Assembly: GCA_902168205.1 (NCBI GenBank)
Contig: CABHOK010000003.1
Coordinates: 806,001 to 870,000 of the forward strand
Length of the DNA stretch: 64,000 bases
Origin: an uncultured Chitinophaga sp.
Lineage (GTDB): Bacteria; Bacteroidota; Bacteroidia; Cytophagales; Cyclobacteriaceae
Direction: 5' to 3'
Below the pieces are notes generated by a model. The model saw only the letters and a program-made list of their open reading frames with translations. It made no database searches and had not been told where the DNA came from. The number at the start of each line of letters is the position of its first letter. Position 1 is the stretch's first letter. Position numbers and translations under genes: made by a program. Below are positions 1-14,538 of the stretch, piece after piece.

Positions 1-2
1 TT

Positions 3-443
3 GCTGAAGCCGCGCTTCGTAACTGGTATACGGGTGAGACTGCGGATGAGCTTTATGAGAAAGCCGTTCGCGAGGCCATGTTGCAGTGGGATCTCATCAG
101 TGGTACCGCCGGTACAATCTCAGAAGATGCCATAACAGACTATATCGATGCGCACCCGTTAGAGACAAGCGCTCCCATCGATGTGCAAATGGAACAGATA
201 TATACGCAGTTCTGGCTGGGTATATTTCCGGATGCGCAGGAAGTATTCGCAAACTACAGGCGTACGGGATATCCGGCATTGGTTCCGAATAATTATCCCG
301 GTAATGCCACCGGTGGTAAAATTTTCAGAAGATTCCTTTACCCGGTAAACGAAGCTACACTGAACACAGCATCCTATAACGAAGCCATCGGGAGACAAGG
401 TCCTGATGATTTCCTGACCCGCGTGTGGTGGGACAAAGAATAG
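3..443 (+). CDS. SusD-like outer-membrane lipoprotein, C-terminal part (partial)
   Basis: The reading frame is open from the left edge of the window (frame from base 3) and ends at TAG 441-443, so only about 146 C-terminal residues are present. The segment has the ending of the SusD-like_2 group: a YRRTGYPAL stretch, then FRRFLYPVNE, and a terminal 'trVWWDKE'. The two complete SusD-like_2 proteins in this window end in similar '...KV(F/W)WD' motifs. SusD proteins are surface lipoproteins that cap a SusC TonB-dependent transporter and capture ligand. A SusC gene would be expected just upstream, outside the window. The gap to the downstream RidA gene is 24 bases, so the uptake pair probably shares a transcript with the catabolic genes that follow. 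Family assignment is firm; the ligand is unknown. Confidence 0.85.
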   Translation, partial: AEAALRNWYTGETADELYEKAVREAMLQWDLISGTAGTISEDAITDYIDAHPLETSAPIDVQMEQIYTQFWLGIFPDAQEVFANYRRTGYPALVPNNYPGNATGGKIFRRFLYPVNEATLNTASYNEAIGRQGPDDFLTRVWWDKE

Positions 444-467
444 ACACTGAATCCAAACTTTATACTC

Positions 468-920
468 ATGAAAGAACAACGCAGAAACGTGTTAAAGAAA
501 CTGACAGCATCACTGGCCGGTATATTAGGGCTTGGTTATGCTGCACAGGCAGGGAATGATACCAGCAAAACTGCTTTTAATGTAACCACCGACCAGGAGA
601 TACCACTATTCTCCGGAGCTGTGAAACATGGTGGTTTTGTATTTATTGCCGGCAAGGGTGCCCATTTTGAAGGTGATATAAAGGCGCATACCGAACATGT
701 TTTAAAAGAACTTGAAAAAGAGCTGAAGAGCGCAGGCTCTTCCATGGACAATGTAGTAAAGGTAAATGTATACCTCAACGATATAAAAGACTACCAGGCT
801 ATGAACGAAGTATACCGCGGCCGTTTTGGCAACAAGCCTCCCGTACGCACAACGGTAGGGGTAGGCGGTGGTGTACCGGGAAATTCGCTGGTAGAGATAG
901 ATTGCATCGCGATCGTCTGA
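468..920 (+). CDS. RidA/YjgF-family enamine/imine deaminase with Tat-like signal
   Basis: 150 residues. The RidA domain starts at about residue 45 and has the family hallmarks: an 'FSGAV..GGFVFIAGKGA' opening, the conserved Arg (about R127, PVRTTV) that binds the carboxylate of the enamine/imine, and the Glu (about E143, LVEIDCIA). RidA proteins hydrolyse reactive enamine/imine intermediates released by PLP-dependent lyases to 2-oxo acids and ammonia. Unusually there is an N-terminal extension of about 30 residues with a twin-arginine motif (QRRNVLKK), a hydrophobic run and an AQA-type cleavage site. This predicts Tat export to the periplasm, whereas standard RidA is cytosolic. The next gene is an exported PLP lyase-like protein, the kind of partner whose product RidA would clear. 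Family assignment is strong; export is inferred from the signal. Confidence 0.9.
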   Translation: MKEQRRNVLKKLTASLAGILGLGYAAQAGNDTSKTAFNVTTDQEIPLFSGAVKHGGFVFIAGKGAHFEGDIKAHTEHVLKELEKELKSAGSSMDNVVKVNVYLNDIKDYQAMNEVYRGRFGNKPPVRTTVGVGGGVPGNSLVEIDCIAIV

Positions 921-978
921 AAAATTTCCCCTCTCACGGGAATGTAATGTGTTAATTTTTTCTTCAGGCTTCTCACGT

Positions 979-1003
979 GCTCTTGCTTGGTTTGGTCAAG
1001 AGC
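979..1003 (+). repeat. Inverted repeat in the ridA-SelA-like gap
   Basis: GCTCTTG (979-985) and CAAGAGC (997-1003) form a perfect 7-bp stem around an 11-base loop in the 176-base gap before the PLP enzyme gene. No T-run follows, so it is not a typical terminator. It may be an RNA-processing or attenuation hairpin inside the operon. The rest of the gap shows nothing recognisable. Confidence 0.35.
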
Positions 1004-1096
1004 CGTGGAAGCTATTGTTTAAAAGATAACTGTGAGCTTCGAGGTGTGAGCTGTGAGATTTTAAAATATAGTTATTACCATGATTAAGATTAAGAT

Positions 1097-2311
1097 ATGC
1101 CTAAACGCAGAGATGTATTAAAACAGATTTCAACGCTGCCTTTACTGGGTGGACTGGCTGCCAGTGTAATGCCGTTGGATATAGTGGCAGCACCACGGTA
1201 TAAAGATTATTTTAAGGAGCTGGGTATCCGTACGTTTATTAATGCTGCGGGTACCTATACTTCCATGACAGGGTCGCTTATGGCGGATGAAGTGGTGGAG
1301 GGTATACAGTATGCGTCCAAAGAATATGTATTGCTGGATGAGTTGCAGGATAAGGTAGGGGAGCGAATCGCGACCCTGTTACATTGTGAAGCCGCAACAG
1401 TTACTTCCGGGGCAGCATCGGCCATTACACTGGCAACGGCCGGTATATTAAGCGGCATGGATGAAAAGAAAGCTGCGATGATTCCTCATCTCGAAGGCAG
1501 CGGCATGAAAACGGAAGTGATCATGCAAAAGGCGCACGATATAGTATATGCACATGCGCTGCGTAACTGTGGCGTGAAAGTAATATTCGTGGAGACACGT
1601 GCCGAGCTTGAGAAGGCGATCAACAGTCAGACGGCGTTGATGTTCTTTGTGAACGCCAATAATTTCGAAGGGAAAATCCGCGCTGAAGAATTTGTGGAAG
1701 TTGCCCGAAAATATAGTATACCTACTATAAACGATTGTGCCGCGGATGTTCCACCGGTAGAGAATCTTTGGAAATATACCCGTATGGGATTCGACCTGGT
1801 GTGTTTCTCCGGGGGAAAAGGTATACGCGGTCCGCAAAGCGCAGGACTTCTGTTGGGAAGAAAAGACCTGGTTGCAGCGGCCCGGTTAAGTGCTCCGCCA
1901 CGCGGTAACACCGTAGGGCGTTGCATGAAAGTAAATAAGGAAGAAATTCTGGGAATGCTGATTGCGCTCGAAGTATACCTTGCCAGAGATCATGCGCAGG
2001 AGTGGAAGATGTGGGAAGCCCAGATCGCTGTTATCAACGATGCCATTAAATTGATGCCGGGTGTGGAAACAAAGATAGATGTACCACCCATTGCCAACCA
2101 TATACCTACACTGAATGTGTCGTGGAATACGAAGCAGGTAAAGCTCTCCGGTGATGAACTGAAGGAAAAGCTTCGAACGGGACATCCGTCAATTGAAGTA
2201 GCCGGTGGCGGTGCCAACAGTGTAAGCATTACAACCTGGATGCTCGTGCCCGGACAGGAGAGAATTGTGGCATCGCGACTTCGCGAAGCGTTGCTTAAAG
2301 CTGCTGTGTAA
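1097..2311 (+). CDS. SelA-like PLP-dependent lyase (D-glucosaminate-6-phosphate ammonia-lyase type), Tat-exported
   Basis: 404 residues, fold type I PLP enzyme of the SelA-related group. The Schiff-base lysine is very probably K241 in the CFSGGKGIRGPQSAG motif. An upstream INDCAADVPP segment supplies the cofactor-binding aspartate. Known relatives eliminate ammonia from hydroxy-amino acids such as D-glucosaminate-6-phosphate to give 2-keto-3-deoxy acids; they are not true selenocysteine synthases. The N-terminus (PKRRDVLKQ, hydrophobic run, VAAP) is a Tat-type signal. This fits a protein that must bind PLP in the cytoplasm and then be exported folded. The stop codon overlaps the next start by one base (TAATG at 2309-2313), showing tight translational coupling to the amidohydrolase. 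In Firmicutes the same two families also sit side by side, but in cytosolic form. The substrate cannot be read from sequence. Confidence 0.82.
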   Translation: MPKRRDVLKQISTLPLLGGLAASVMPLDIVAAPRYKDYFKELGIRTFINAAGTYTSMTGSLMADEVVEGIQYASKEYVLLDELQDKVGERIATLLHCEAATVTSGAASAITLATAGILSGMDEKKAAMIPHLEGSGMKTEVIMQKAHDIVYAHALRNCGVKVIFVETRAELEKAINSQTALMFFVNANNFEGKIRAEEFVEVARKYSIPTINDCAADVPPVENLWKYTRMGFDLVCFSGGKGIRGPQSAGLLLGRKDLVAAARLSAPPRGNTVGRCMKVNKEEILGMLIALEVYLARDHAQEWKMWEAQIAVINDAIKLMPGVETKIDVPPIANHIPTLNVSWNTKQVKLSGDELKEKLRTGHPSIEVAGGGANSVSITTWMLVPGQERIVASRLREALLKAAV

Positions 2312-3600
2312 TGCTTGCTCGATTATCTATACATCGATTGAGACCGATATGGTTGCGTGGTTTGCTTATAATCTTTTTGCTATTGGATAACAGGCTATAT
2401 GCACAAGACTATACGTTGCTGTTAAAGGGCGGTCATATTATCGATCCGAAAAATAATATCAATGGACCTGCCGATATAGCGGTGCGTGCCGATACGATTG
2501 TGGCCATTGGTAGAAATCTCGATGCTTCGCGCGCGCGGCAGGTGATTGATGTTTCGGGTATGTATATATCTTCCGGACTTATCGATCTTCATTCTCATAA
2601 TTTTTATGGCACAGAGCCTGATCATTATTTGAGCAACGGCTTCGAGGCACTGCCTCCCGATGGATTTACCTTTCGGTGTGGCATCACTACGGTAGTGGAT
2701 GCCGGTGGTGCCGGATGGAAAAATTTTACAGTCTTTCGCGATCAGACGATACGACAATCCAAAACGCGCGTACTCTCTTTCTTAAATATAGTAGGTGAAG
2801 GAATGCGCGGTGGTCCGTATGAGCAGAACCTGGCAGATATGGATGCGCGCATGACAGCGCTGGTGGCACAACAGCATCGTGAAATTGTAGGCATTAAAGT
2901 AGCGCATTACTCCGGCAGTGAATGGGAACCGGTGGATCGCGCGGTCGCTGCCGGGAAGATAGCACGTATACCGGTGATGATCGATTTCGGTGGACACATT
3001 CCTCCGTTGTCGCTGCAGGAGCTTCTGGAAAAACACTTACGTCCGGGAGATATATTTACCCATACATTCGCGCGCGTTGCCGGCAGAGTACCTGTTGTGG
3101 ATGCGCAAGGTAATGTCCTTCCATTTGCGCGTGAGGCTCAACAGCGCGGTATACTTTTCGATGTAGGTCATGGCGGAGGAAGTTTTCTGTTTTCACAAGC
3201 TATCCCCGCTATAAAGAACGGATTCTTTCCGAATACTATCAGCACCGATATACATACCGGCAGCATGAATGCCGGCATGAAGGATCTTCTGAATGTGATG
3301 TCTAAATTCCTAAATATAGGGATGAGTCTACAGCAGGTGATTCAATGCACCACGTGGGCTTCCGCTAAAGCTATTAACCGCGATGACTTAGGACATCTGT
3401 CTGTCGGTGCTGTTGCAGATATAGCGGTGTTCACTGTACAGAACGGTAAATTTGGTTTTGTAGATTCTGGCGGGAATAAAATAGCCGGTACTAAAAAACT
3501 GCAATGCGAGCTGACTATACGTGCGGGAAAAATTGTGTACGACCTCAATGGTATTTCAAGTCTGGTATGGATGCCGGAGCAAACCGCTCGTGGTAAATAA
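2311..3600 (+). CDS. Exported amidohydrolase/deacetylase (cog3964, EF_0837-like)
   Basis: 429 residues, amidohydrolase superfamily. Visible features are an N-terminal signal peptide (hydrophobic LLIIFLLL ending at LYAQ), then the small beta domain LLKGGHIIDPKNN. Metal ligands follow as HSHN (about residue 94), a lysine in GIKVAHYSGSEW likely to be the carboxylated bridging lysine, THTF, DVGHGGGSF and the late aspartate in STDIHTGS. Members of this family are often mislabelled dihydroorotase; those tested in vitro remove acyl groups from acetylated hydroxy-acid-type substrates. The neighbouring SelA-like lyase, one-base start/stop overlap and conserved pairing in other phyla suggest it generates the lyase's substrate by deacylation. 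Export puts this step in the periplasm. Family is secure; the reaction is inferred. Confidence 0.83.
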   Translation: MLARLSIHRLRPIWLRGLLIIFLLLDNRLYAQDYTLLLKGGHIIDPKNNINGPADIAVRADTIVAIGRNLDASRARQVIDVSGMYISSGLIDLHSHNFYGTEPDHYLSNGFEALPPDGFTFRCGITTVVDAGGAGWKNFTVFRDQTIRQSKTRVLSFLNIVGEGMRGGPYEQNLADMDARMTALVAQQHREIVGIKVAHYSGSEWEPVDRAVAAGKIARIPVMIDFGGHIPPLSLQELLEKHLRPGDIFTHTFARVAGRVPVVDAQGNVLPFAREAQQRGILFDVGHGGGSFLFSQAIPAIKNGFFPNTISTDIHTGSMNAGMKDLLNVMSKFLNIGMSLQQVIQCTTWASAKAINRDDLGHLSVGAVADIAVFTVQNGKFGFVDSGGNKIAGTKKLQCELTIRAGKIVYDLNGISSLVWMPEQTARGK

Positions 3601-3641
3601 AGAATAAATCTGTAAGGACAACCAACGCAAAGTAGATATAC

Positions 3642-4559
3642 ATGAAGTCAATGATGATGTTGCTGCTGGTGCTTGCACCGGTGGTCGTTTCACTCGCACA
3701 AACTATAGCGCGAGACGAACTTATATTTCTTACCTCAGAGTGGAAAGGCGAACGTTTTACTGACGGCCGACCGAAGTTACCCGATGAACTGCTGGAACGT
3801 GCCAAACACGTTACAATAGAAGAGGCATGGCTTGTGTTGAAGAATGAAGGCTACCGCTGTCAGTTTGAAGGGAACTGGAAGGTTGTGAATCATAACGCAG
3901 TGATGGTTGGGCGCGCGTTAACAGCCATGTATATACCGAGTCGCCCGGATATAGAGAAGAACATCAAAGAGCGCGGTAAAAAGGAAGGCCGCATCGGAAA
4001 TACCAATGCATGGCCCATTGATAAATTAAGCAAAGGCGATATATATGTAGCGGACTGTTTTGGCAAGATACAGGGCGGTACATTGATTGGCGACAACCTG
4101 GCAAGCTCGATCTATGCGAAGTCGGGAAACGGAGTTATCTTTAACAGTGCCGCACGCGACCTCGAAGGTATATCTAATATACAAGGCTTTAACGCGTGGG
4201 TTCGCGACTGGGATCCATCGTACCTGGAAAATGTAGTGTTGATTGGTTTAAATACACCCATACGTTTAGGACAAGCCGTAGTGTTGCCGGGCGACCTCGT
4301 GTTGGCCAAAGAAGAGGGCGTAATTTTTATACCGGCACACCTTGCTCAGAAAGTTATTATCACCGCGGAGTTCCTTTCCCTTCGCGACAAGTTTGCTTAC
4401 GCGATGCTACGTGAAGGCAGATTTACTCCGGGCGAGATTGACAACCAGTGGACAGACAGAGTAAAGGAAGTCTTTTTGCAATGGCTCGATAAAAATCCCG
4501 GAGCACTGCCTATGAAGCGTGCCGAACTGGATGAGTTTATGAAGAACAGAACCTGGTGA
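3642..4559 (+). CDS. RraA-family aldolase/decarboxylase-like protein, exported
   Basis: 305 residues with an N-terminal Sec signal (LLLVLAPVVVSLAQ), then a helical extension and an RraA-fold core. The diagnostic segment is about residues 130-170: GDIYVADCFG, GTLIGDNLASSIYA and FNSAARDLEGI. The GD.LA loop and the Arg-Asp pair are the pyruvate/metal-binding residues of 4-hydroxy-4-methyl-2-oxoglutarate aldolases. These enzymes cleave 4-hydroxy-2-oxo acids or decarboxylate oxaloacetate. Older annotations as RNase E regulator or menaquinone methyltransferase do not apply. The protein is longer than standalone RraA (about 160-230 residues). Placed after a PLP lyase and RidA, which would make a 2-oxo acid, an aldolase/decarboxylase is a logical next step. 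Exact activity is unproven. Confidence 0.8.
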   Translation: MKSMMMLLLVLAPVVVSLAQTIARDELIFLTSEWKGERFTDGRPKLPDELLERAKHVTIEEAWLVLKNEGYRCQFEGNWKVVNHNAVMVGRALTAMYIPSRPDIEKNIKERGKKEGRIGNTNAWPIDKLSKGDIYVADCFGKIQGGTLIGDNLASSIYAKSGNGVIFNSAARDLEGISNIQGFNAWVRDWDPSYLENVVLIGLNTPIRLGQAVVLPGDLVLAKEEGVIFIPAHLAQKVIITAEFLSLRDKFAYAMLREGRFTPGEIDNQWTDRVKEVFLQWLDKNPGALPMKRAELDEFMKNRTW

Positions 4560-4601
4560 GGATTCTTCCTGCGATCAATCAGACTACATTAACTTTTAAA
4601 G

Positions 4602-5738
4602 ATGCTCAGGATATATAGCTATAAAACCTTTTTTTACCTGTCGGCTCTTTGCTTGCTGACAGCCGGTATATTGATATGGACAGACGCAGATAGTGGCTCG
4701 GGTATATTACTGGTGGCGGCTGTGGTGCTGCTGGCATTGGGCTTTCGCCGATATGCTGCGCTGAAGGGATATACCTATACCATGATGGTGATCGCTGCGG
4801 TGATTGCAGCCATGTTTTATCCGCAGTATTTTATTACCGTTGGCGATTTCCGGCTCGACCGCATGATAACGCCATTGCTACAGATCATTATGTTCGGTAT
4901 GGGAACCGCGATGAGTGCGCAGGATTTTATAGGTATCATTCGCATGCCGAAGGGCGTGATTGTAGGTACACTCAATCACTTTACCATTATGCCGCTGCTC
5001 GGTTTTACACTTGCGAATATATTTGATTTTCCCCCGGAGATTGCCGCGGGTGTTATACTCATTGGGTGTTCTCCGTGCGGTATGGCGTCTAATGTTATAT
5101 CGTATCTCGCACGAGCTAACCTGGCGCTTTCCATTACACTTACTACTGTATCAACTTTTCTGGCGCCTATACTTACTCCGTTGCTCATGAAGCTACTCGC
5201 AGGACAGTTCATCGAGATTGATGTTGTGAAGATGATTTGGGACATTACCAAGATTGTAATTCTCCCGGTAGGAGCTGGTTTACTCTTCAATCATCTGCTG
5301 AAAGGCAAAGTGAAATGGCTTGACGAAGCAATGCCACTACTCTCTATGGCAGGCATCGGGTTTATTATACTCATTATTACAGCAGCCGGTCGCGGAAGTT
5401 TGCTGGAGATAGGTATAGCATTGATTGCGTCTTCACTCATTCATAACACTGCAGGATATTTTTTAGGATACTGGTCTGCACGATTGTTCCGTATGCAGGA
5501 ACAGGATTGCCGAACCATTGCCATTGAAGTGGGGATGCAAAACGGTGGTCTTGCTTCCGGTATAGCCCGGGAGATGGGCAAGCTTGCAACCGTAGGATTG
5601 GCGCCTGCTATATTTGGTCCACTCATGAATATAACCGGATCAATGCTTGCAACCTGGTGGCGTGGGCGTCTGATTGAAGATGATGAGGTGAGGAAAGTAG
5701 AGGAGACTGTCAGGGGAAAACTTGAGACAGAGCGTTGA
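4602..5738 (+). CDS. BASS-family (bile acid:sodium symporter-like) transporter
   Basis: 378 residues with about ten hydrophobic segments spread from residue 8 to 360. The BASS signature sits in the middle: GCSPCGMASNVISYLARAN, followed by ALSITLTTVSTFLAPILTP, plus a second crossover region around EVGMQNGGLASGIA. In bacteria these sodium-coupled carriers move organic anions such as pyruvate, ketopantoate or other keto acids; 'bile acid' is only the founding substrate. It lies 42 bases after the RraA-like gene on the same strand and is the last gene before a strong hairpin. In this context it is the likely inner-membrane importer of the acid product formed in the periplasm by the preceding exported enzymes. 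Family secure, substrate inferred. Confidence 0.87.
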   Translation: MLRIYSYKTFFYLSALCLLTAGILIWTDADSGSGILLVAAVVLLALGFRRYAALKGYTYTMMVIAAVIAAMFYPQYFITVGDFRLDRMITPLLQIIMFGMGTAMSAQDFIGIIRMPKGVIVGTLNHFTIMPLLGFTLANIFDFPPEIAAGVILIGCSPCGMASNVISYLARANLALSITLTTVSTFLAPILTPLLMKLLAGQFIEIDVVKMIWDITKIVILPVGAGLLFNHLLKGKVKWLDEAMPLLSMAGIGFIILIITAAGRGSLLEIGIALIASSLIHNTAGYFLGYWSARLFRMQEQDCRTIAIEVGMQNGGLASGIAREMGKLATVGLAPAIFGPLMNITGSMLATWWRGRLIEDDEVRKVEETVRGKLETER

Positions 5739-5751
5739 TATCCATTGAAAA

Positions 5752-5786
5752 ATGATTTCCCGCAGAATGCTTCTGCGGGAAATCAT
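5752..5786. terminator. Strong terminator between convergent genes
   Basis: A perfect 16-bp stem (5752-5767 with 5771-5786) closes a 3-base loop. An A-run at 5747-5751 gives a T-tract on the minus strand, so it best terminates the GH3 gene. It sits exactly between the stops of the converging transporter and GH3 genes and probably blocks read-through both ways. Confidence 0.8.
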
Positions 5787-5792
5787 GAACTA

Positions 5793-7958
5793 TTATTTCT
5801 TTATCGTAAAGCTAGCGACAGCTTTTTCATCTTGTGAGTTGCCGCCAACAAATATAGTATACTTGCCCGGCACAACTTCCCAGGTGCTTTTCTTCAGGTT
5901 CCACTTTTGCAGATCAGCAATCGGTATACTTAACGTTATATCCTGCTGACCACTTTTGGCTATATGTACGCGACTGAATTGCTTCAGCTCCTTTAACGGA
6001 GCACGCTCACCAGTAGGATACTTGATATAGGCCTGAACAACTTCATCGCCATCATACGAACCGGTATTCTTTACTTGCACCGTACATGAAACTATATCTT
6101 TTGCTTTGTAGGATTCGCGTGGTTTTTCTTTCCAGGCGTAAGCGAACTGCGTATAGCTTAGTCCAAATCCAAAAGGATATTGCACCTCGCCCGTAAAGTA
6201 ACGATACGTTCTTCCTTTGGTAGCGTAGCTGTCGTAAGCAGGCAGATCGTTGAATGATTTGTAGAACGTTACTGGCAGTCGTCCTGAAGGAGAAACTTTT
6301 CCGAAGAGTATATCTGCCAAAGCGTTTCCGCCTTGTTCTCCGGGATACCAGGCAAGTATAACGGCATCCGCGTAGGGCTCGATCGCAGCTACATTTATAG
6401 CACTGCCGGCAGTTACTACAGCTATAATCGGCTTCTTGTGTTTCTTGCGTAGTGCTTTTAGAAACGCTATATGGCTGGCCGGTATATTCAGGTCAGCTTT
6501 ATCGCCACCGTGAGCCGCGAGAAATGCATCGCCTTCTTCACCTTCCAGCACAGGCGTAAGTCCTACCACGGCAATGGTAACATCACTGTTCTCGGATGCC
6601 CACAAACCACCGAAATGTACTGAGTCAACATCGTTACAACCCAGGTCATACTGCACAACGGTAGCAGGCCCGGCAGCTTTGGTAATGCCTTCCACGAACG
6701 TGACTACATCCGAAGAAACACCGTGATAATTTCCTAACAACGCATCGAGCGATGCCGCGTTAGCTCCGGCCACAAGTATACTTCCATACGATTCTGATTT
6801 CAACGGAAGTATATTCTTGTCGTTTTTCAGCAGTACCATACTTTGTTGAGCAGCCTTACGCGCATAGTTAACATGGGTTGCGCTACGTATACTCTCTTGT
6901 CCTAAAGACGAGAACGGTACATTTTCAGGGTTGTCGTAGAACCCAAGTTTAAATTGTGTGCGCAGGGAAGGAGCAAGAGCATCATCAATTTCTTTTTCGG
7001 TGATAAGATTTTGCTGAACCGCTTTCATCAGATCATCCTGCAGCATATTGGAGCAATCTAGATTCACACCGGCTTTGATTGCCGCTGCAGCAACGTGTAC
7101 AGCATCGGGCATTACTTTATGACGCAGCCATATATCTTCGAGCGCCCAGCAGTCTGTTACTACATGTCCCTTGAATCCCCATTCTTCACGAAGTATTTTA
7201 TGCAGCAAAGTATTGCCTGTACAACAAGGTTCGTCATTCACACGGTTATAGCCACACATCACCGATTCGACACCGGCACCTACCAGTTCATGAAAAGCAT
7301 AGAGATATGTTTCGCGCAGATCTTTCTCGTCAACAATAGCATTGAACGTATGGCGGTTTGCTTCCGGGCCACTGTGCACGGCAAAGTGTTTGGCGCACGC
7401 TGATGTTTTGAGATAATGCGGATCGTTTCCCTGCAAGCCCTTTACAAAAGCTTTCCCCATGCGCGCTGTGAGGTACGGATCTTCACCGTATGTTTCCTGT
7501 CCACGGCCCCAGCGCGGATCGCGGAATATATTAATGTTCGGAGACCAGAACGTTAGTCCCATATACTGTATCCTGCGATCTTGTTTCACGGCCAGGTTAT
7601 ACTTGGCGCGTGCCTCGGTAGAAATAACATCTGCGATGGAATGTTGCAGATCATCGTTGAACGTTGCCGCAAGGGCAATAGCCTGCGGAAATACCGTTGC
7701 TTCACCGGCCCGTGCTACTCCGTGCAATGCTTCATTCCACCAGTTATATACCGGTATACCAAGACGCGGCACACCTTTGCTGTTAAAACCGAACAGGTGA
7801 ATTTTCTCTTCGAGCGTGAGTTGCTTCAGCAGATCGCGCACGCGATCGTCTGCCGGGAGACTTGCATTCTGGTAAGGTTGCACCGTGCTTTGTGCAGCAG
7901 CAGGCAGGGTGAATAAAATTACACACAGAAACGTGTGTATGAAGTAAAGCGTTCGCAT
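5793..7958 (-). CDS. GH3 family glycosidase (beta-glucosidase/beta-xylosidase type), secreted
   Basis: 721 residues. A signal peptide (FLCVILFTLPAAAQS) precedes the GH3 N-domain, which starts at the conserved LTLEEKIHLF segment. The N-domain contains YNWWNEALHGVA, FPQAIALAATFN, the KHFAVHSGPE loop and the nucleophile Asp at about D269 (VVTDCWA). The GH3 C-domain follows (ILVAGANAA, AWYPGEQGGNALADILFG, SPSGRLPVTF), then a C-terminal fibronectin-III-like domain. The YNWWNEALHGVA form is typical of the subgroup holding beta-xylosidases, alpha-L-arabinofuranosidases and related periplasmic enzymes rather than BglX. It stands alone on the minus strand and does not belong clearly to either neighbouring uptake locus. 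The 241 bases between it and the divergent FecR gene hold both promoters; I could not pin down their elements. Confidence 0.92.
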   Translation of the reverse strand: MRTLYFIHTFLCVILFTLPAAAQSTVQPYQNASLPADDRVRDLLKQLTLEEKIHLFGFNSKGVPRLGIPVYNWWNEALHGVARAGEATVFPQAIALAATFNDDLQHSIADVISTEARAKYNLAVKQDRRIQYMGLTFWSPNINIFRDPRWGRGQETYGEDPYLTARMGKAFVKGLQGNDPHYLKTSACAKHFAVHSGPEANRHTFNAIVDEKDLRETYLYAFHELVGAGVESVMCGYNRVNDEPCCTGNTLLHKILREEWGFKGHVVTDCWALEDIWLRHKVMPDAVHVAAAAIKAGVNLDCSNMLQDDLMKAVQQNLITEKEIDDALAPSLRTQFKLGFYDNPENVPFSSLGQESIRSATHVNYARKAAQQSMVLLKNDKNILPLKSESYGSILVAGANAASLDALLGNYHGVSSDVVTFVEGITKAAGPATVVQYDLGCNDVDSVHFGGLWASENSDVTIAVVGLTPVLEGEEGDAFLAAHGGDKADLNIPASHIAFLKALRKKHKKPIIAVVTAGSAINVAAIEPYADAVILAWYPGEQGGNALADILFGKVSPSGRLPVTFYKSFNDLPAYDSYATKGRTYRYFTGEVQYPFGFGLSYTQFAYAWKEKPRESYKAKDIVSCTVQVKNTGSYDGDEVVQAYIKYPTGERAPLKELKQFSRVHIAKSGQQDITLSIPIADLQKWNLKKSTWEVVPGKYTIFVGGNSQDEKAVASFTIKK

Positions 7959-8199
7959 GGCAGAACCGGGTTAAAATTGATTTGAGGGTTCAAATATTGA
8001 CAGTAAATCATTTTAATGGGACATGCGGCATGGAAAATTTTTTTTATTCTTTTTTCTGCGGTTATTAAGATTAGATTTCCGGGAGATAGTCGTTTAAAGG
8101 GTTCCAGAGTGTAGAGCAGAATAACTTGGAGTATGTTCCATCCCTGTATGGATATACGATTATCATTGTTAAATTTAAGGGATCGATAGATTTATTTAG

Positions 8200-9198
8200 A
8201 TGCGCTATAGTAATTATTCTGCTGAGGATCTTGCATTGGACGACAGTTTTAGGAAATGGGTGCTGAGCCCGGATGATGAGTCTACTCAGTTCTGGAACCG
8301 ATGGCTTGAAAGTAATCCTCACAGAGAAGAAGACATTCATAAAGCTAAACAACTTGTTAAACTCGCTGGCTTGCGCACAGACAACGAGATCACTACTGCT
8401 TTTCTCGATGTGTGGGGAAAGATAAAAGAGAACGCAGAACAAGAGACGCAGCAACAAACACAAAGCACACAGAATTACAGAGCCTGGGCAGCAGCTATAG
8501 CTGCGATGATGGTGCTGGCTGCGATATATGTTTTATGGCCCGCGCAGCAGGCTGATGTTACCTATAGAACTGCCTTTGGAGAAATCAGAGAATTTATACT
8601 TCCGGATGGATCGCGCGTGGCATTGAATGCCAACTCGCAGCTTGTATATAATACCAATTGGACAGGAACGAAACGCAAGGTATTCCTAACGGGCGAAGCT
8701 TTCTTTGATGTAGTACATACGGGCGATAACAAAGAATTTATAGTAGAAACGTTTGAAGATTTTTCAGTGCAGGTACTCGGCACGGAGTTCAACGTAAATA
8801 CTCGTAAAGGAAATACTGCGGTATATCTGCAATCGGGAAGAATCGAGCTGCAGACTGCGAAAGAAAACGTGATATTAAAACCCGGTGATCTCGCGGTGAT
8901 CAAAGACACAAATCCAGTATGGTTCAACCGTGATGCAAAAGCAGAGAATACGCTGGCGTGGAAAAATAATCTCTTCATCTATAATGATACTCCGCTCTCC
9001 GGAATCATTCAGGACATTGAAGATAACTTCGGAGTGCAGGTGCACGTAACCGAATCGGCTTTAATGGACAAACGTGTAACAGCAAAGATATCCCGTAAAA
9101 ATGTGGATGTTTTATTGCAAGTTCTTGGAGAAATATTGGATGTCCAAATCGAGCAAAATAAAAAGCAGATCGTTATAAGTCCCAATCATCAGGATTGA
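8200..9198 (+). CDS. FecR-family anti-sigma factor/sigma regulator
   Basis: 332 residues. An N-terminal cytoplasmic anti-sigma segment (FRKWVLSPD, WNRWLESNPHREEDI) is followed by one membrane span at about residues 98-115 (AAAIAAMMVLAAIYVLW). The periplasmic FecR domain comes next (REFILPDGSRVALNANSQL, KRKVFLTGEAFFDV, VLGTEFNVN), and a C-terminal STN-like segment ends at QIVISP. Such proteins relay ligand occupancy of an STN-bearing SusC to an ECF sigma factor. The SusC directly downstream does have an STN domain, so the relay makes sense. However, no ECF sigma gene lies upstream as it normally would; the neighbour there is the divergent GH3 gene. The sigma partner must be encoded elsewhere. 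Confidence 0.93.
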   Translation: MRYSNYSAEDLALDDSFRKWVLSPDDESTQFWNRWLESNPHREEDIHKAKQLVKLAGLRTDNEITTAFLDVWGKIKENAEQETQQQTQSTQNYRAWAAAIAAMMVLAAIYVLWPAQQADVTYRTAFGEIREFILPDGSRVALNANSQLVYNTNWTGTKRKVFLTGEAFFDVVHTGDNKEFIVETFEDFSVQVLGTEFNVNTRKGNTAVYLQSGRIELQTAKENVILKPGDLAVIKDTNPVWFNRDAKAENTLAWKNNLFIYNDTPLSGIIQDIEDNFGVQVHVTESALMDKRVTAKISRKNVDVLLQVLGEILDVQIEQNKKQIVISPNHQD

Positions 9199-9262
9199 TT
9201 ACCTTTGGTGGAATAGGTTTTCTCTATCCAGTCTCCAAACCCTATAGGTAAACCTCGATCCA

Positions 9263-12200
9263 ATGAGCTGCCAATCACAAAGAGTGATGAAAGCGTTTTG
9301 TGCTTTTGTCGCATGCTATAGCATGGTTGGTTATATCTATGCACAGGGTGCAACTATAAAAAATCGCTCTGCGGTTAATAAACCTCTTCTTAGTCAGTCT
9401 GTTGATAAACCAATTCCTTTAGCCGATGCGTTGCGTAAACTCGAAGAGCGGAATCACGTAACCTTCGCCTATCAGAAAGATTTTCTGGAAAATAAGTTTG
9501 TCACCTATACGGCAGACGAACGTAAATCGCTGGAAGTATACCTTGACGAAATGCTTGCTCCGCACAACCTGGAGTATAAACGGGTGGAAGGTATAGATCA
9601 GACGATCTATGTTATATACCCGAAACGTGAGCGGCTTGCCGAAGCTAAAACACTAACGATATCCGGAAAGGTAACAAACCAGTTTGACGAAGCCATTGCC
9701 GGTGTGAGTATATTCCTGAAAGAAGAAGGCATTGGTACGCTAACCGATATGGAAGGCAATTACTCGATCAGCTTTCCGCAGGATAATGAAAATGTACTGG
9801 TGTTCTCCCATATAGGGTATATGGTGAAGGAAGTGTCCTATACCGGTGAACAGTACGTTGACGTTGTGCTGGCTGAAAACCTGTCGCAGCTTTCGGAAGT
9901 TGTTATCACGGCATTGGGTATTAGCAAAAATCAGAAGGCTCTCGGGTACTCCGTGAGTACGATCAATTCGTCTCAGATCACACAGGCCGGAAATACCAAC
10001 GTTGTGTCCGCCATGTATGGAAAAGCTCCGGGTGTAAGAATACGTACAGCACCCGGCGGTGCTACGAGTGCTGTTACCATGCAGGTTCGCGGTTTAAATT
10101 CACTGAACTATAATGCACAGCCGCTATATATAGTCGATGGTGTTTTGATGCGTGACGGAAACGAGAAGGGCGCACTCGGTGTAAACAATACTGATTACTA
10201 TACCGATGCCCGTATTCGTGGCAATGGTATACTGGATATAAATCCATCGGATATTGAAACGATATCGGTGCTGAAAGGTGCAGGCGCAACAGCTCTCTAT
10301 GGATCCGATGCTGCGAATGGTGTTGTGGTGATCACCACCAAGAAGGGCGATAAGAAAGCAGGGCTCGGTGTAGAGATCGGGTATACTGCCAGTCTCGAAC
10401 AGGTTGCCTTTACTCCGCATTATCAGAATGTATACGGTCCGGGTTTCGATCGCGACCGAAATATATCGCTCGGTGCTGATGCATCCGGTTGGGTTCCGGT
10501 TGATATGGATCAGGATGGTGAAGCCGAAACAAAGCGCCCGTTGTTTGAATCGTATGCACAATTCGGACCGAAGATGGATGGCGAGCAGGTAATGTGGTGG
10601 GATGGTACAAAACGAAATTATAGTCCTCATCCGAACAATTATAAAGATTTTTACAGGCACGGCTATAATTCCTTATTCAATGCCGCCATCAGTAATAAAA
10701 CAGAACGCGTTGCCTATCGATTCTCTTATTCCAGAAACGACTATGCCGGTATACAGGTAGGTGGTAAACTGCAACGCAATACATTTAACCTGAATAACTA
10801 TATCAAGATATCGGATCGCCTCTCGGCCGATGTAGTATTGAATTATTCCAATAGCCGGGTGCACAATCGTCCGTTAAAAATTAATCGGATTACGTCAAGC
10901 TGGGATGGATTTTTCAGCAGGGCAGAAGATATGTCGTTGTTGTCTGAAAAGTATAAAACATCGAAAGGGTATAAATGGGTGCCCTACGATCAATCGCAGC
11001 GAGATCCTGCCGAAACCCTATACTTTACAACACCGCGCGGTTATGAAGTAATGAATTTTTTCTGGAAGCAACTTCGGGACAGTGAAGACGAGAACCAGAA
11101 TCGACTGATCTCCAGTGTCACACTTCATTACGAGATTACACCCAACCTGCATTTTCGTGGTAAGATCGGTAATGACTTTACAAGTCTCTCCATCAAAGGA
11201 AAAGGATATAATGAATACCCGACAATCTTTAATGTTAACAGCAGCACCGGGTCGTATAGTGTGTCCAACGGGCGGTATTCGATTTTATATACCGATGCTC
11301 TGTTAACCTATAGCAAAACCGTATCGCGTGATTTTTCTTTCTCGGTCAACAGCGGGTTCCAATTGCGGGATGAACAATATCGTGATCAGGCCACTGCTAC
11401 GAGCGGAGGATTGGCTGTTGAAAACTGGTTTAGTCTGAATAACTCTTACAACGCTACCAAGATTGCAACAGAAACACAGTCGCTTATTTTAAAGTATGCT
11501 TTTCTGGGTATAGTAAATTTGAACTATAAGGATTTGCTTTTTCTGGAAGGTACAGCGCGGCAGGAGTATTCTTCTACATTGGCACCTGGTAATAACCGGT
11601 ATTTTTATCCATCTGTAAATAGTAGTTTTATTTTGTCAGACGCGGTGACGTTGCCTCGTTTTATTTCGTACGCCAAGCTTCGCGGGTCGTATGGCGTGGT
11701 GGGGAATGCTCCACCCGTTTATGAAGCAAATATACTATATGATCTCACGTCACTGCAGACTACACAAGGTTCTGTGACAGCTGCTTCAACACAGGGAAAC
11801 CTGTACGGTAATAATGCTATCAAACCCGAAAATAAATATGAGACAGAATTCGGTCTTGAGACAAAGCTGTGGGAAGGAAAGATAGGGGTTGACCTGACGT
11901 ACTACGCCAGCCGAATAAAAAACCAGATTCTGAAACTGGATTTACCCACGAGCGTAGGTGCGAGTAAAATGCTGACGAATATAGGTCAGTTGCAAAATAA
12001 CGGTTGGGAGCTGGGACTCAATTCATCAGTAGTAACTTCCGCATTTACATGGACAAGCGCTGTCAATATAGCGTTGAATACATCGAAGGTTCATTCGCTG
12101 GGAAATGGTATTGATAAACTGGTGTTTCGCGATCTGGAAGGAAGCGCTATACAAGTTGTAGCAGAACCTGGGGAGTCGATTGGAAATATATATGTATACC

Positions 12201-12931
12201 CGCGCAAGACAGATAGTAACGGTAACTTTATTATTAATGATAAAGGTGTATATATCATCGATAAGACCCGGTATGTTAAAGCTGGTAACATGCTGCCCAA
12301 AGTAACCGGTGGATTTGTGAATGCTTTACAGTATAAGAATTTCAGACTCGATCTCACGATCGATTACAGCATTGGTGGCCGGATTATTTCGCCTCCTTTA
12401 AAATATGGTATGGGCTCGGGCATGTATACCAGTACACTGCGATATCGTACGGCTGAAGCCGGTGGATTGCCGTACTATATTAACGCCACGGGTACTAAAA
12501 TTCTGCTTGAAGGGCATAATGCAGCAGCTCCGGATGGGAGCACGGTATACCATGACGGTGTTGTATTGAAAGGGGTAACAAACAACGGGTCACCCAACGA
12601 AACAGTTATTGATGCACCAACCTACTACCTGAGTACATACGACTGGGGCAGCAACGCCTGGAACGAGAACGCAGCTATATACGACAACAGCTATATAAAA
12701 ATGCGCGAAGCAGTGCTAAGCTATATGCTGCCGGCTGAGTTTGTTAGCAAGCTGCACTTTCAAAGTATTCGTGTGTCGCTGGTAGGACGAAATCTTTTTT
12801 ACCTCTGGCGCACGTTGGAGAATCTTGATCCAGAATCTACCATTGGTACAAACTGGTTGAATCAGGGTATAGACGAAGGAACCAATGCTGCTACACGAAG
12901 TTATGGCTTTGCACTTAATATGAGTTTCTAA
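9263..12931 (+). CDS. SusC/RagA-type TonB-dependent transporter with STN domain
   Basis: 1222 residues. A signal peptide ends near YIYAQG. An STN domain covers about residues 50-120 (PLADALRKLEERNHVTFAY), a carboxypeptidase-regulatory-like beta-sandwich about 131-205 (TISGKVTNQFDEAIAGVSIF), then the SusC hallmark LSEVVITALGIS. The plug domain includes VRGLNSLN, PLYIVDGVL and GAGATALYGSDAANGVVVITTKKG. A large beta-barrel ends in '...YGFALNMSF' with a C-terminal Phe. It imports oligomers across the outer membrane with TonB energy. The STN domain connects it to the FecR protein encoded just upstream. The next gene, starting 11 bases later, is its SusD partner. Ligand unknown; no degradative enzyme sits in this immediate cluster. 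Confidence 0.95.
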   Translation: MSCQSQRVMKAFCAFVACYSMVGYIYAQGATIKNRSAVNKPLLSQSVDKPIPLADALRKLEERNHVTFAYQKDFLENKFVTYTADERKSLEVYLDEMLAPHNLEYKRVEGIDQTIYVIYPKRERLAEAKTLTISGKVTNQFDEAIAGVSIFLKEEGIGTLTDMEGNYSISFPQDNENVLVFSHIGYMVKEVSYTGEQYVDVVLAENLSQLSEVVITALGISKNQKALGYSVSTINSSQITQAGNTNVVSAMYGKAPGVRIRTAPGGATSAVTMQVRGLNSLNYNAQPLYIVDGVLMRDGNEKGALGVNNTDYYTDARIRGNGILDINPSDIETISVLKGAGATALYGSDAANGVVVITTKKGDKKAGLGVEIGYTASLEQVAFTPHYQNVYGPGFDRDRNISLGADASGWVPVDMDQDGEAETKRPLFESYAQFGPKMDGEQVMWWDGTKRNYSPHPNNYKDFYRHGYNSLFNAAISNKTERVAYRFSYSRNDYAGIQVGGKLQRNTFNLNNYIKISDRLSADVVLNYSNSRVHNRPLKINRITSSWDGFFSRAEDMSLLSEKYKTSKGYKWVPYDQSQRDPAETLYFTTPRGYEVMNFFWKQLRDSEDENQNRLISSVTLHYEITPNLHFRGKIGNDFTSLSIKGKGYNEYPTIFNVNSSTGSYSVSNGRYSILYTDALLTYSKTVSRDFSFSVNSGFQLRDEQYRDQATATSGGLAVENWFSLNNSYNATKIATETQSLILKYAFLGIVNLNYKDLLFLEGTARQEYSSTLAPGNNRYFYPSVNSSFILSDAVTLPRFISYAKLRGSYGVVGNAPPVYEANILYDLTSLQTTQGSVTAASTQGNLYGNNAIKPENKYETEFGLETKLWEGKIGVDLTYYASRIKNQILKLDLPTSVGASKMLTNIGQLQNNGWELGLNSSVVTSAFTWTSAVNIALNTSKVHSLGNGIDKLVFRDLEGSAIQVVAEPGESIGNIYVYPRKTDSNGNFIINDKGVYIIDKTRYVKAGNMLPKVTGGFVNALQYKNFRLDLTIDYSIGGRIISPPLKYGMGSGMYTSTLRYRTAEAGGLPYYINATGTKILLEGHNAAAPDGSTVYHDGVVLKGVTNNGSPNETVIDAPTYYLSTYDWGSNAWNENAAIYDNSYIKMREAVLSYMLPAEFVSKLHFQSIRVSLVGRNLFYLWRTLENLDPESTIGTNWLNQGIDEGTNAATRSYGFALNMSF

Positions 12932-12942
12932 ATATCAGGGAT

Positions 12943-14538
12943 GTGAGGTTCGGAAAAATTATAATAAGTATAGGGCTGTTGATGATCGGTATATCCTGTA
13001 AGGAAGAACTGGATGATCGTTATGAGAATCCGGATCGTACCGCGGATGCAACGATCGATCAGTTTTTTACAGCAATGCTGAACAATAACCGCGTGCGGCC
13101 TCAGTACTGGGAGATGAGTACGTTCATAAACTGGCATATTGGTGTATATACCCAGTCTGTCGGTTTTTTGAATACTGAATATATATACCAGCAGAATGAG
13201 GCCTATATCAGTAATCGTTGGGATGATTTTTACCGCCCGAGTGCAAATGGTTCCGGAGTGATGGCTTTATACCGCGAGATTGAAAAAGCTTATGCGGCCT
13301 TATCAACGGACGAACAGAAGAGTGTGGAAGTATTTGTACAGGCTGCAAAAGTGGTGTTGTATGAACAGGCAGCACAGATGGTTGATATGTGGGGAGATAT
13401 ACCATTCAGTGAAGCTGGCTTGTTGAATAAGACAGGTGAAGTAGTATATCCGGTTTTTGACAGCGATGCCGTTGTGTATGATACCTTGCTGGCAGGTTTG
13501 AAAGAAGCGTCTGAATATTTTTCATCGGCTGAATTGTCGTCCTCTACGCAATCAGTGTTTTCTACGCAGGATATTTTACTGCATGGCGATCTCAAGCGCT
13601 GGCAGCGGTATGCTAATGCACTACGTCTTCGTCTGTTGATGCGCATCTCGTTTGTGAACGAAAGTCGCGCACAAGCCGAGGTAACGGAAATGTTGAGCAA
13701 CCCGGGTGTTTATCCTTTCCCCGGTGATGTAGCCGCACAGTACGACCCCGATAATGATGATGTGTTGTTACAGCCGCTTGTAAACTATACCGATGATCTG
13801 CATATAGCTTTTACCGACTGGACCAATTACCCGGCACCGTACTTTATGCTGGAAGAAGTACTGAAGCCTGTAGAAGACCTGCGGATACCGGTGTTATACG
13901 ATAAGTACGGACAAACCATGAACGGACAATTTGTGCCGAACTCGGGCTACAACGGTATGCCGATAACATATTCGCAAACCGAGCAACAAATAAACCTGGA
14001 GAAGTTCGCTATACTGGATTCAGGTACATTTCTCTACAATTCGAAACTGCCCGGAGTACTAATGACGGCCTCTGAGGTTAATTTTCTAAAGGCAGAAGCC
14101 TATGAACGATGGGGTGGGGGTAGCGCTGTTGATGAATATACCGAAGGCGTTAACAGGTCTGTTGTATTTTATTACTACCTCAACAATCTGAATCAGTCGT
14201 CTGGCAGAAAAATTGCGCCTCCCGCCGATGCGACTATCGACACATTTATAGCCAACGCCATTGCTCCGCTCTATACCGGAACGCAACACGATAAGCTCGA
14301 AGCCATCTGGACTCAGAAGTGGGTACATTTTGGTTTTTTACAGGCTATTCAAAGTTGGTCTGAATTGCGGAGAACGCATCTTCCTCAATTATACTTCTAT
14401 ACATCGCCGCTCACCGGGTATGAATTACCTCCGTCCCGGCTTACCTATCCTGGCAACGAGAAAACGTTTAACAGTAATTATAATGCTGTTGCTGCGAAAG
14501 ATACGCGCGATGGTAAAGTTTTCTGGGATGTGCAGTGA
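12943..14538 (+). CDS. SusD-like_2 surface lipoprotein
   Basis: 531 residues from a GTG start; the nearby ATG at 12941 is out of frame and runs straight into a stop. The signal is lipoprotein type: IISIGLLMIGISC with Cys at the lipobox, then acidic KEELDD. The body is helical and TPR-like, with the SusD-like_2 ending WSELRRTHLPQL, PPSRLTYPGNE and GKVFWDVQ. It should sit on the cell surface as the lid of the preceding SusC. Separation from SusC is 11 bases, so the pair is one transcript. About 600 non-coding bases follow before the next SusC/SusD pair. Confidence 0.92.
   Translation: MRFGKIIISIGLLMIGISCKEELDDRYENPDRTADATIDQFFTAMLNNNRVRPQYWEMSTFINWHIGVYTQSVGFLNTEYIYQQNEAYISNRWDDFYRPSANGSGVMALYREIEKAYAALSTDEQKSVEVFVQAAKVVLYEQAAQMVDMWGDIPFSEAGLLNKTGEVVYPVFDSDAVVYDTLLAGLKEASEYFSSAELSSSTQSVFSTQDILLHGDLKRWQRYANALRLRLLMRISFVNESRAQAEVTEMLSNPGVYPFPGDVAAQYDPDNDDVLLQPLVNYTDDLHIAFTDWTNYPAPYFMLEEVLKPVEDLRIPVLYDKYGQTMNGQFVPNSGYNGMPITYSQTEQQINLEKFAILDSGTFLYNSKLPGVLMTASEVNFLKAEAYERWGGGSAVDEYTEGVNRSVVFYYYLNNLNQSSGRKIAPPADATIDTFIANAIAPLYTGTQHDKLEAIWTQKWVHFGFLQAIQSWSELRRTHLPQLYFYTSPLTGYELPPSRLTYPGNEKTFNSNYNAVAAKDTRDGKVFWDVQ

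Follow-up and report, generated by a model that had tools for sequence, protein, structure and literature searches.

The first 5,738 nucleotides of the 64,000-nucleotide stretch analysed here (the window; contig CABHOK010000003.1, positions 806,001 to 870,000, from an uncultured Chitinophaga sp.) are the 3' end of an operon which, in its own genome, comprises genes for LacI (assigned by Pfam), an extracytoplasmic function (ECF) sigma factor, FecR, SusC, SusD, a RidA-family protein, a pyridoxal phosphate (PLP)-dependent lyase, an amidohydrolase, an RraA-like enzyme and a BASS-family carrier. We incline, if only just, to read it as an exported catabolic module for N-acyl 2-amino-2-deoxy-aldonic acids, of which N-acetylglucosaminate (GlcNAc1A) is the likeliest. 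The module is best read as a periplasmic, compartment-shifted variant of the cytosolic catabolism of glucosaminate or GlcNAc1A. Amino-sugar-acid breakdown as the chemical class is well supported; the identity of the substrate, the order of the steps, the hand-over to RidA and the cargo of the carrier we infer. An initial annotation had described the region as a complete exported route for acyl-hydroxy/amino acids. The gene order and families that it gave are confirmed by Pfam and NCBIfam matches across positions 1-5738, and the order of its chain (deacylation, PLP-dependent elimination, RidA, an aldolase-type step, import) is plausible. Its observation is therefore confirmed and its interpretation partly supported: "complete" was too strong a word, since the operon encodes no sugar-oxidising enzyme and catalysis is predicted.

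Export is indicated first by the N-termini of RidA and the lyase, both of which carry RR-x-V-L-K followed by an uncharged hydrophobic stretch, as expected of twin-arginine translocation (Tat) leaders. A rule of our own (RR-x-phi-phi followed by a 13-residue window free of D, E, K and R with mean hydropathy above 0.8) was run on every called open reading frame (ORF) of 48 loci, all methionines in the first 60 residues being tried, in the controls as well. It matched 51 of 53 lyases and 32 of 36 RidAs against 10 of 492 other ORFs, one of those ten being a cut-short lyase. Matches in the two families are far above chance, and fortuitous leaders are ruled out by these control figures, so that the Tat signals originally claimed for both proteins hold. 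By eye, with the start codon taken as the last methionine before the twin basic pair (a choice that favours the motif), the RR pair is present in all 53 lyases and in 34 of 36 RidAs, the remaining two having RK; Arg4 and Arg5 of the lyase are invariant in 26/26 aligned sequences. Across Bacteroidota these leaders vary in sequence except for the twin arginines and the hydrophobic stretch, which are conserved. Twin-arginine leaders were also seen by eye on the lyase, RidA and a second PLP protein of a Granulicella (Acidobacteriota) plasmid, whose RraA and amidohydrolase have Sec-like leaders. A hydrophobicity rule found Sec-type starts in 17 of 18 RraA proteins, including that of the window, and in 45 of 48 amidohydrolases; the Sec signals earlier assigned to RraA and the amidohydrolase therefore stand, that of the window amidohydrolase as a probable one. 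A second type of RidA has Sec-type starts in 9/9 cases, mostly lipoprotein-like by eye. The host genome encodes TatC. The export signals are thus well supported by conservation, and export itself is predicted. A Tat-exported PLP enzyme had been thought unusual; the leader is borne out and the novelty is not, for PvdN and PtaA are likewise PLP enzymes exported folded via Tat, their task being the tailoring of pyoverdine side chains rather than catabolism (PMC6206403). No description of a Tat-type RidA and lyase pair was found among the papers listed from an open-access library.

The order of the genes recurs in other Bacteroidota and on the Acidobacteriota plasmid, and within the exported clade no case was found of the signals being absent while the gene order stays. 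On an Aminobacter plasmid (L094:3329-7179; loci are numbered with L and genomes with G) a leaderless amidohydrolase, RidA and lyase lie behind an ABC importer. This set is likely to be a cytosolic counterpart of the exported module and, having another gene order and another transporter, does not tell against export.

The window lyase scores 156 and 186 bits against curated lyase models, below the cut-off of both (385 bits for TIGR01437). Its best solved match, by sequence and by fold, is 7lc0, the D-glucosaminate-6-phosphate ammonia-lyase DgaE, which heads the Foldseek matches (TM 0.78/0.84) to an AlphaFold model of mean pLDDT 84.5, with the leader below 50. The PLP lysine, written as Lys-217 in one passage of PMC9529869, and its aspartate (Asp189) are kept in 53/53 lyases; at the position of Arg226, which is placed close to the substrate carboxylate, all except 2 have either Arg or Lys. 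Docking places Arg301, Arg332 and Arg346 of DgaE at the substrate phosphate (PMC9529869). At none of these three positions does any of the 53 exported lyases have arginine, the window protein having Thr, Ala and Trp; a phospho-sugar route was rejected on this ground, and the disappearance of a phosphate site is what would be expected in a compartment without ATP or phosphoenolpyruvate. When two Granulicella lyases were added (n=55), one of them was found to keep one of the three arginines. Elsewhere in the family, a Lacticaseibacillus relative beside phosphotransferase system (PTS) genes keeps all three together with the His162/163 pair, in two rhizobial relatives the histidines are present with two of the three arginines, and five haloarchaeal relatives have lost all three. 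In a FastTree phylogeny of 66 proteins the exported lyases group as a single clade (support 1.0) that also takes in one Sinorhizobium protein, and this clade joins the haloarchaeal set (0.998); DGL, Cap15 and the rhizobial and Lacticaseibacillus proteins fall outside the combined group.

Degenerate and additional PLP genes also occur. The lyase gene at L084 (G453:C3:146001-166000) is no longer intact, one of its matched pieces containing stop codons, and at L062:8058-8738 (-) a second copy, cut short at 226 aa, adjoins RidA and amidohydrolase genes in a genome that has another full copy. The same clusters hold members of a longer PLP subfamily (Table 1), possibly a second lyase or a racemase; these proteins run to about 530-570 aa, have twin-arginine starts and extend further at the C-terminus.

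The presence of RidA beside the lyase may be explained by the histidine pair. The H163A mutant of DgaE is active and frees an intermediate into solution, which its authors read as the enamine (PMC9529869). Of the 53 exported lyases 1 has a histidine aligned with His163, in a His162/163 loop that aligns unstably (the residue of 8t7j there differs between two alignments). From the behaviour of the mutant and the scarcity of this histidine we propose that the exported lyases release the enamine and that RidA completes the reaction. The window RidA scores 76 bits against TIGR00004 (cut-off 106). Arg127 and Glu143, which we take to be catalytic, are invariant in 27/27 aligned RidAs. The view that "its own RidA" sets the exported version apart has to be given up: the exported form is not alone in having a RidA partner, since Rid genes adjoin lyase relatives in rhizobia and haloarchaea as well. 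Among 12 plasmid loci chosen by us, not at random, from the best 40 of 239 records, two are unannotated; in 8 of the other 10 the annotation places a Rid gene near the lyase, and in L092 and L093 it shows none.

The window amidohydrolase scores above the cut-off of the PRK09237-type amidohydrolase/deacetylase model NF006689 (442 against 371 bits) and keeps the metal ligands. This group is, we presume, COG3964. HxH, Lys, His and Asp are present in 50/50 aligned rows (48 family members including the window protein, the window protein again, and 2ogj); a sixth position, guessed to be a ligand, was not conserved in that alignment. The RraA-like protein reaches only 49 bits against TIGR02798, the model of 4-hydroxy-4-methyl-2-oxoglutarate/4-carboxy-4-hydroxy-2-oxoadipate (HMG/CHA) aldolase (cut-off 305), and its model (pLDDT 82.5) matches the fold of 5x15, 5ir2 and 3noj, the HMG/CHA aldolase. 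The window protein is one of the 15 family members, among 18, that show a D-x20-R-D spacing, presumably the metal and catalytic motif of that aldolase type. The role of R123 in the motif is treated in PMC5065237. For the RraA-like enzyme either aldol cleavage or dehydration is conceivable. The carrier scores 246 bits with TIGR00841 and 242 bits with the PanS model, both below their own cut-offs; that it would import the keto-acid product is a guess from family membership.

The amidohydrolase family has other partners too: at L081 and L083 (G313 and G352) it has a signal-like start and no lyase match. Stretches from three of the four genomes that have an amidohydrolase and no lyase match were examined; the amidohydrolase was a called ORF in two, and the neighbours were of other kinds, one being a 7-bladed lactonase.

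The lyase module is a patchy accessory trait. Of 395 genomes drawn from the phylum, 8, belonging to 7 of 171 genera, have the lyase; all eight also have the amidohydrolase, which occurs in 12. These counts, like that of the dehydrogenase below, may be too low, because in most rows no more than 3 or 4 candidates per genome were scored, and co-occurrence p-values over the 395 genomes treat as independent genomes that are not. At order level a lyase match was present in 14 of 194 genomes, some matches being distant (37-39 %) or broken copies. For neighbourhoods, 42 lyase loci were picked by likeness to the window lyase, of which L023 was dropped because no lyase was called. The remaining 41 include near-identical pairs (L003/L004, L007/L008, L014/L015, L072/L073, L074/L076, L077/L078) and short contigs or contig ends (L016, L020, L021, L067). 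Neighbours were labelled by phmmer against our own reference proteins, with a Pfam check on 10 + 10 of them. An amidohydrolase was found at 37 of the 41 loci, a Tat-type RidA at 32, the second RidA type at 8, SusD at 22, RraA at 18 and BASS at 14; some loci show no SusCD, RraA or BASS.

Sugar-oxidation genes recur at the same loci, and with them the hydroxy-amino acid substrate that had been suggested becomes less attractive. The neighbours checked with Pfam include a protein that joins a GSDH domain (PF07995 39 bits) to cytochrome c (PF00034 38 bits), an SMP-30 lactonase (PF08450 152 bits), a 7-bladed lactonase (PF10282 367 bits) and a protein with carbohydrate-binding module CBM9. Over the 41 loci the dehydrogenase-cytochrome c was seen at 18, CBM9 at 13, an SMP-30 lactonase above 300 bits at 10 and a 7-bladed lactonase at 6. 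Over the phylum, the full-length dehydrogenase-cytochrome c (above 700 bits, a cut-off chosen after the hit list was seen) is found in 8 of 395 genomes, seven of which have the lyase, and the one lyase genome without it is that of the window; at a looser E of 1e-60 the family occurs in 51 genomes, including 7 of the 8 with the lyase. In G134 the dehydrogenase gene adjoins genes for LacI, a PfkB kinase of the 2-keto-3-deoxygluconate (KDG) type and a 2-keto-3-deoxy-6-phosphogluconate (KDPG)/2-keto-4-hydroxyglutarate (KHG) aldolase; the aldolase scores above its cut-off, the kinase is nearest to KDG kinases and below their cut-offs, and the lyase cluster of this genome is itself without the dehydrogenase. 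The window genome has a KDG-type kinase (again below the KDG-kinase cut-offs) and a KDPG aldolase side by side outside the operon. Three of five haloarchaeal loci (L091, L095, L098) bring together a PIG-L deacetylase, the lyase, a glucose 1-dehydrogenase and Rid, and the other two (L096, L097) have the lyase and Rid with other sugar-type oxidoreductases. Because the nearest characterised enzyme makes KDG-6-phosphate from glucosaminate-6-phosphate, and because sugar-oxidation genes recur in relatives, an amino-sugar acid fits better than a hydroxy-amino acid.

The proposed pathway would begin with SusC and SusD carrying the acid, or an oligosaccharide of it, across the outer membrane. The exported amidohydrolase would strip off the acyl group, and the Tat-type lyase, a non-phospho relative of D-glucosaminate-6-phosphate ammonia-lyase, would eliminate water and free the enamine, which the Tat-type RidA would turn into ammonia and a 2-keto-3-deoxy acid such as KDG. 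Part of this keto acid may be cleaved or dehydrated by the RraA-like enzyme, and BASS would import keto acid for the cytosolic KDG-kinase/KDPG-aldolase route.

Common amino-sugar catabolism, of GlcNAc and others, is cytosolic and begins with phosphorylation (PMC9537276). The closest functional parallel to the proposed module is the Ong pathway of oxidised-chitin use in Pseudoalteromonas prydzensis, in which OngB, OngC, OngD and KdgK serve GlcNAc1A (PMC9537276). TonB-dependent uptake, a deacetylase, a PLP deaminase, a RidA protein and a KDG intermediate would be common to both, as counterparts by function; the RidA protein, OngD, is required for growth on GlcNAc1A, its role being left open by the authors. 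The systems differ in that OngB and OngC are predicted to be cytoplasmic, that the acid itself enters through an SSS importer where a keto-acid carrier is proposed here, and that OngB, a D-aminoacylase-like enzyme of subtype V, has a Cys/His/His site (PMC12017989) where the 50 rows aligned here have HxH-Lys-His-Asp. With the dga operon (7lc0; PMC9529869) the module shares the PLP fold and family, the PLP Lys and Asp, and, in the same type of operon, a 2-keto-3-deoxy acid aldolase; there, however, the substrate is phosphorylated by the PTS, and DgaE keeps His162/163 and Arg301/332/346, which the exported lyases have lost or do not conserve. PTS genes, lyase and KDGP aldolase are present in the Lacticaseibacillus stretch, with no Rid or amidohydrolase annotated in its incomplete gene table, and on this ground a simple copy of the Firmicute set was rejected. 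Similar genes in Natrarchaeobius chitinase clusters are predicted to serve GlcNAc, the authors assuming a kinase step (PMC12343721), which the loss of the arginines in haloarchaeal lyases would make unnecessary. Clusters of this type share a deacetylase, a sugar dehydrogenase, a DgaE-like lyase and RutC/Rid, and the five haloarchaeal lyases compared also lack the arginine cluster; their deacetylase and dehydrogenase are of other families, their function is a prediction only, and the one haloarchaeal N-terminus read (L091) has no leader, unlike the exported set. Lastly, FlDet, from alginate use in Flavobacterium, is also a Bacteroidota RraA-like enzyme acting on a 2-keto-3-deoxy sugar diacid; it differs in being a protein of about 27 kDa found in cell extract, and a keto-deoxy-hexarate dehydratase/decarboxylase rather than an aldolase (PMC8563752).

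Several observations weigh against the assignment to N-acyl amino-sugar acids, or against parts of it. In the window genome neither a full-length dehydrogenase-cytochrome c (all 13 candidates were scored, and the best of them, which has no cytochrome part, reached 111 bits) nor an AA10 lytic polysaccharide monooxygenase (LPMO) was found, and an LPMO-linked chitin locus was rejected on the latter ground. Either the oxidised sugar would have to come from elsewhere or another GSDH-domain place would have to supply it, that domain being matched at 9 places in the genome. The nearest gene there for glycoside hydrolase family GH20 is about 111 kb past the operon, and GH20 lies near only 2 of the 41 lyase loci (Pfam-confirmed in both), so it was rejected as a general neighbour. 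The dehydrogenase of the relatives resembles a solved quinoprotein glucose dehydrogenase only weakly by sequence (E 0.0028). Four genomes have the amidohydrolase without a lyase match, and D-x20-R-D is missing from 3 of 18 RraA proteins (L006, L007, L008). The link between His163 and RidA is not strict, the rhizobial relatives keeping the His pair and yet having a Rid gene, and no exported-type RidA was called at 9 of the 41 loci, three of which (Daejeonella) have a leaderless one. The window amidohydrolase narrowly misses the 10-residue Sec rule with a hydrophobic region of 9 residues. The curated NCBIfam Tat model gives the window RidA 10.6 bits (cut-off 16.7), matches 2 of 27 RidAs at all, and is absent among the matches listed for the window lyase and among 25 families listed for 26 lyases.

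This last result could mean that the leaders are non-functional, or the Tat motif a relic, and the enzymes cytosolic, which we regard as very improbable: the conservation of twin arginines and hydrophobic stretch noted above, in Bacteroidota and (by eye) on the Acidobacteriota plasmid, the Sec-type starts of the partner proteins, the Sec- or lipoprotein-like starts of the second RidA type at 8 loci, and the presence of TatC all argue for working signals. A more serious alternative, though still an unlikely one, keeps the same exported chemistry of deacylation, PLP-dependent beta-elimination and RidA and changes the substrate to a D-amino acid, N-acylated and either beta-hydroxy or of another kind. 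That the phosphate arginines are lost does not decide between sugar acid and amino acid, and is compatible with some other substrate too; one rhizobial relative sits with ABC transporter and allantoicase/ureidoglycine aminohydrolase genes; and four locus names of the amidohydrolase group yielded no paper in a search of an open-access library, so that we know of no proven substrate for the group. Against an amino acid stand the recurrence in relatives of dehydrogenase-cytochrome c, lactonases, CBM9 and KDG-type genes, and the glucose dehydrogenase and PIG-L deacetylase of the three haloarchaeal loci.

The cluster might also modify rather than degrade, its PLP protein being not a lyase but O2-dependent like Cap15, or a tailoring enzyme like PvdN, which as a Tat-exported PLP enzyme offers a precedent (PMC6206403). 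Cap15 (8t7j, titled oxygen- and PLP-dependent) is the second-best fold match of the lyase model; it keeps, however, all three arginines lost from the exported set and groups outside their clade. The Rid genes of the plasmid loci point to an enamine or imine product, and the SusCD and BASS import genes fit catabolism, making a modifying role improbable. Slightly less credible still is a role in detoxifying or scavenging some reactive sugar-amine product in the periplasm, to which import would be incidental. It would suit the name of the best NCBIfam model of the window RidA, "Rid family detoxifying hydrolase", and those loci that are without SusCD, RraA or BASS, against which stand SusD at 22 and BASS at 14 of the 41 and the sigma/FecR control beside SusCD. 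Such control is typical of nutrient uptake.

A wider form of the amino-sugar-acid proposal is tentative, and we think it rather doubtful: that some Bacteroidota and Acidobacteriota run the whole of amino-sugar catabolism outside the inner membrane with no phosphorylation, the window organism having the lower half and taking up pre-oxidised acids. A quinoprotein-type dehydrogenase-cytochrome c would oxidise the N-acetyl sugar and feed the respiratory chain directly, the lactone would be opened by a lactonase, and the deacylase, the Tat-exported lyase, RidA and the RraA aldolase would yield small keto acids for BASS to import. If the exported set works as proposed, reactive enamine chemistry can sit in the periplasm and Bacteroidota have a route for oxidised chitin-type acids; amidohydrolases and SelA-like PLP proteins that are now poorly assigned would gain a substrate class, as would the exported RidA and RraA proteins.

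Table 1. Features of the operon end in the window, and members of the longer PLP subfamily at other loci
Feature	Position	Strand	Basis
SusD-type outer-membrane lipoprotein, C-terminal part	1..443	+	Pfam PF12741 98 bits
RidA-family enamine/imine deaminase with predicted export leader	468..920	+	PF01042 89 bits
Predicted RidA twin-arginine leader MKEQRRNVLKK...YAAQA	468..551	+	sequence and Tat rule match; end by eye
SelA/DgaE-like PLP lyase with predicted export leader	1097..2311	+	TIGR01437 186 bits (below cut-off 385)
Predicted lyase twin-arginine leader MPKRRDVLKQ...DIVAA	1097..1192	+	sequence and Tat rule match; end by eye
Amidohydrolase/deacetylase-family metallohydrolase with Sec-like leader	2311..3600	+	NF006689 442 bits (cut-off 371)
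Probable Sec signal peptide of amidohydrolase	2311..2406	+	sequence; end by eye
RraA-like enzyme (class II pyruvate-aldolase type or keto-deoxy-sugar-acid dehydratase), Sec leader	3642..4559	+	PF03737 54 bits
Predicted Sec signal peptide of RraA-like enzyme	3642..3701	+	hydrophobicity rule match; end by eye
BASS-family inner-membrane carrier	4602..5738	+	PF01758 144 bits (cut-off 24)
Terminator-like hairpin, 16 pairs, between convergent BASS and GH3 genes	5752..5786	.	scan, found on minus strand
Longer PLP subfamily members	L079:9171-10847 (-); L080:8858-10540 (-); L063:11737-13455 (-); L089:7698-9296		same clusters

The SusD gene begins outside the window (whole gene, L002:9899-11443), with the SusC, FecR, ECF sigma and LacI genes upstream of it in L002. 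Base 2311 is common to the TAA stop of the lyase and the ATG of the amidohydrolase, confirming the one-base overlap reported earlier. From the gene spacing, in which the RidA-lyase gap is 176 bases, the whole run is likely to be co-transcribed, and the hairpin is likely to mark the end of the operon. An Rfam scan gave no match. A myo-inositol oxygenase gene (PF05153; L002:2216-3145, minus strand) lies a short way upstream of the window and points away from the LacI gene of the operon. Downstream, window positions 5793-14538 hold a GH3 glycosidase gene on the minus strand and then a second FecR-SusC-SusD set, and Ohtaekwangia koreensis (L003) likewise has genes of the GH3 type and for FecR downstream.

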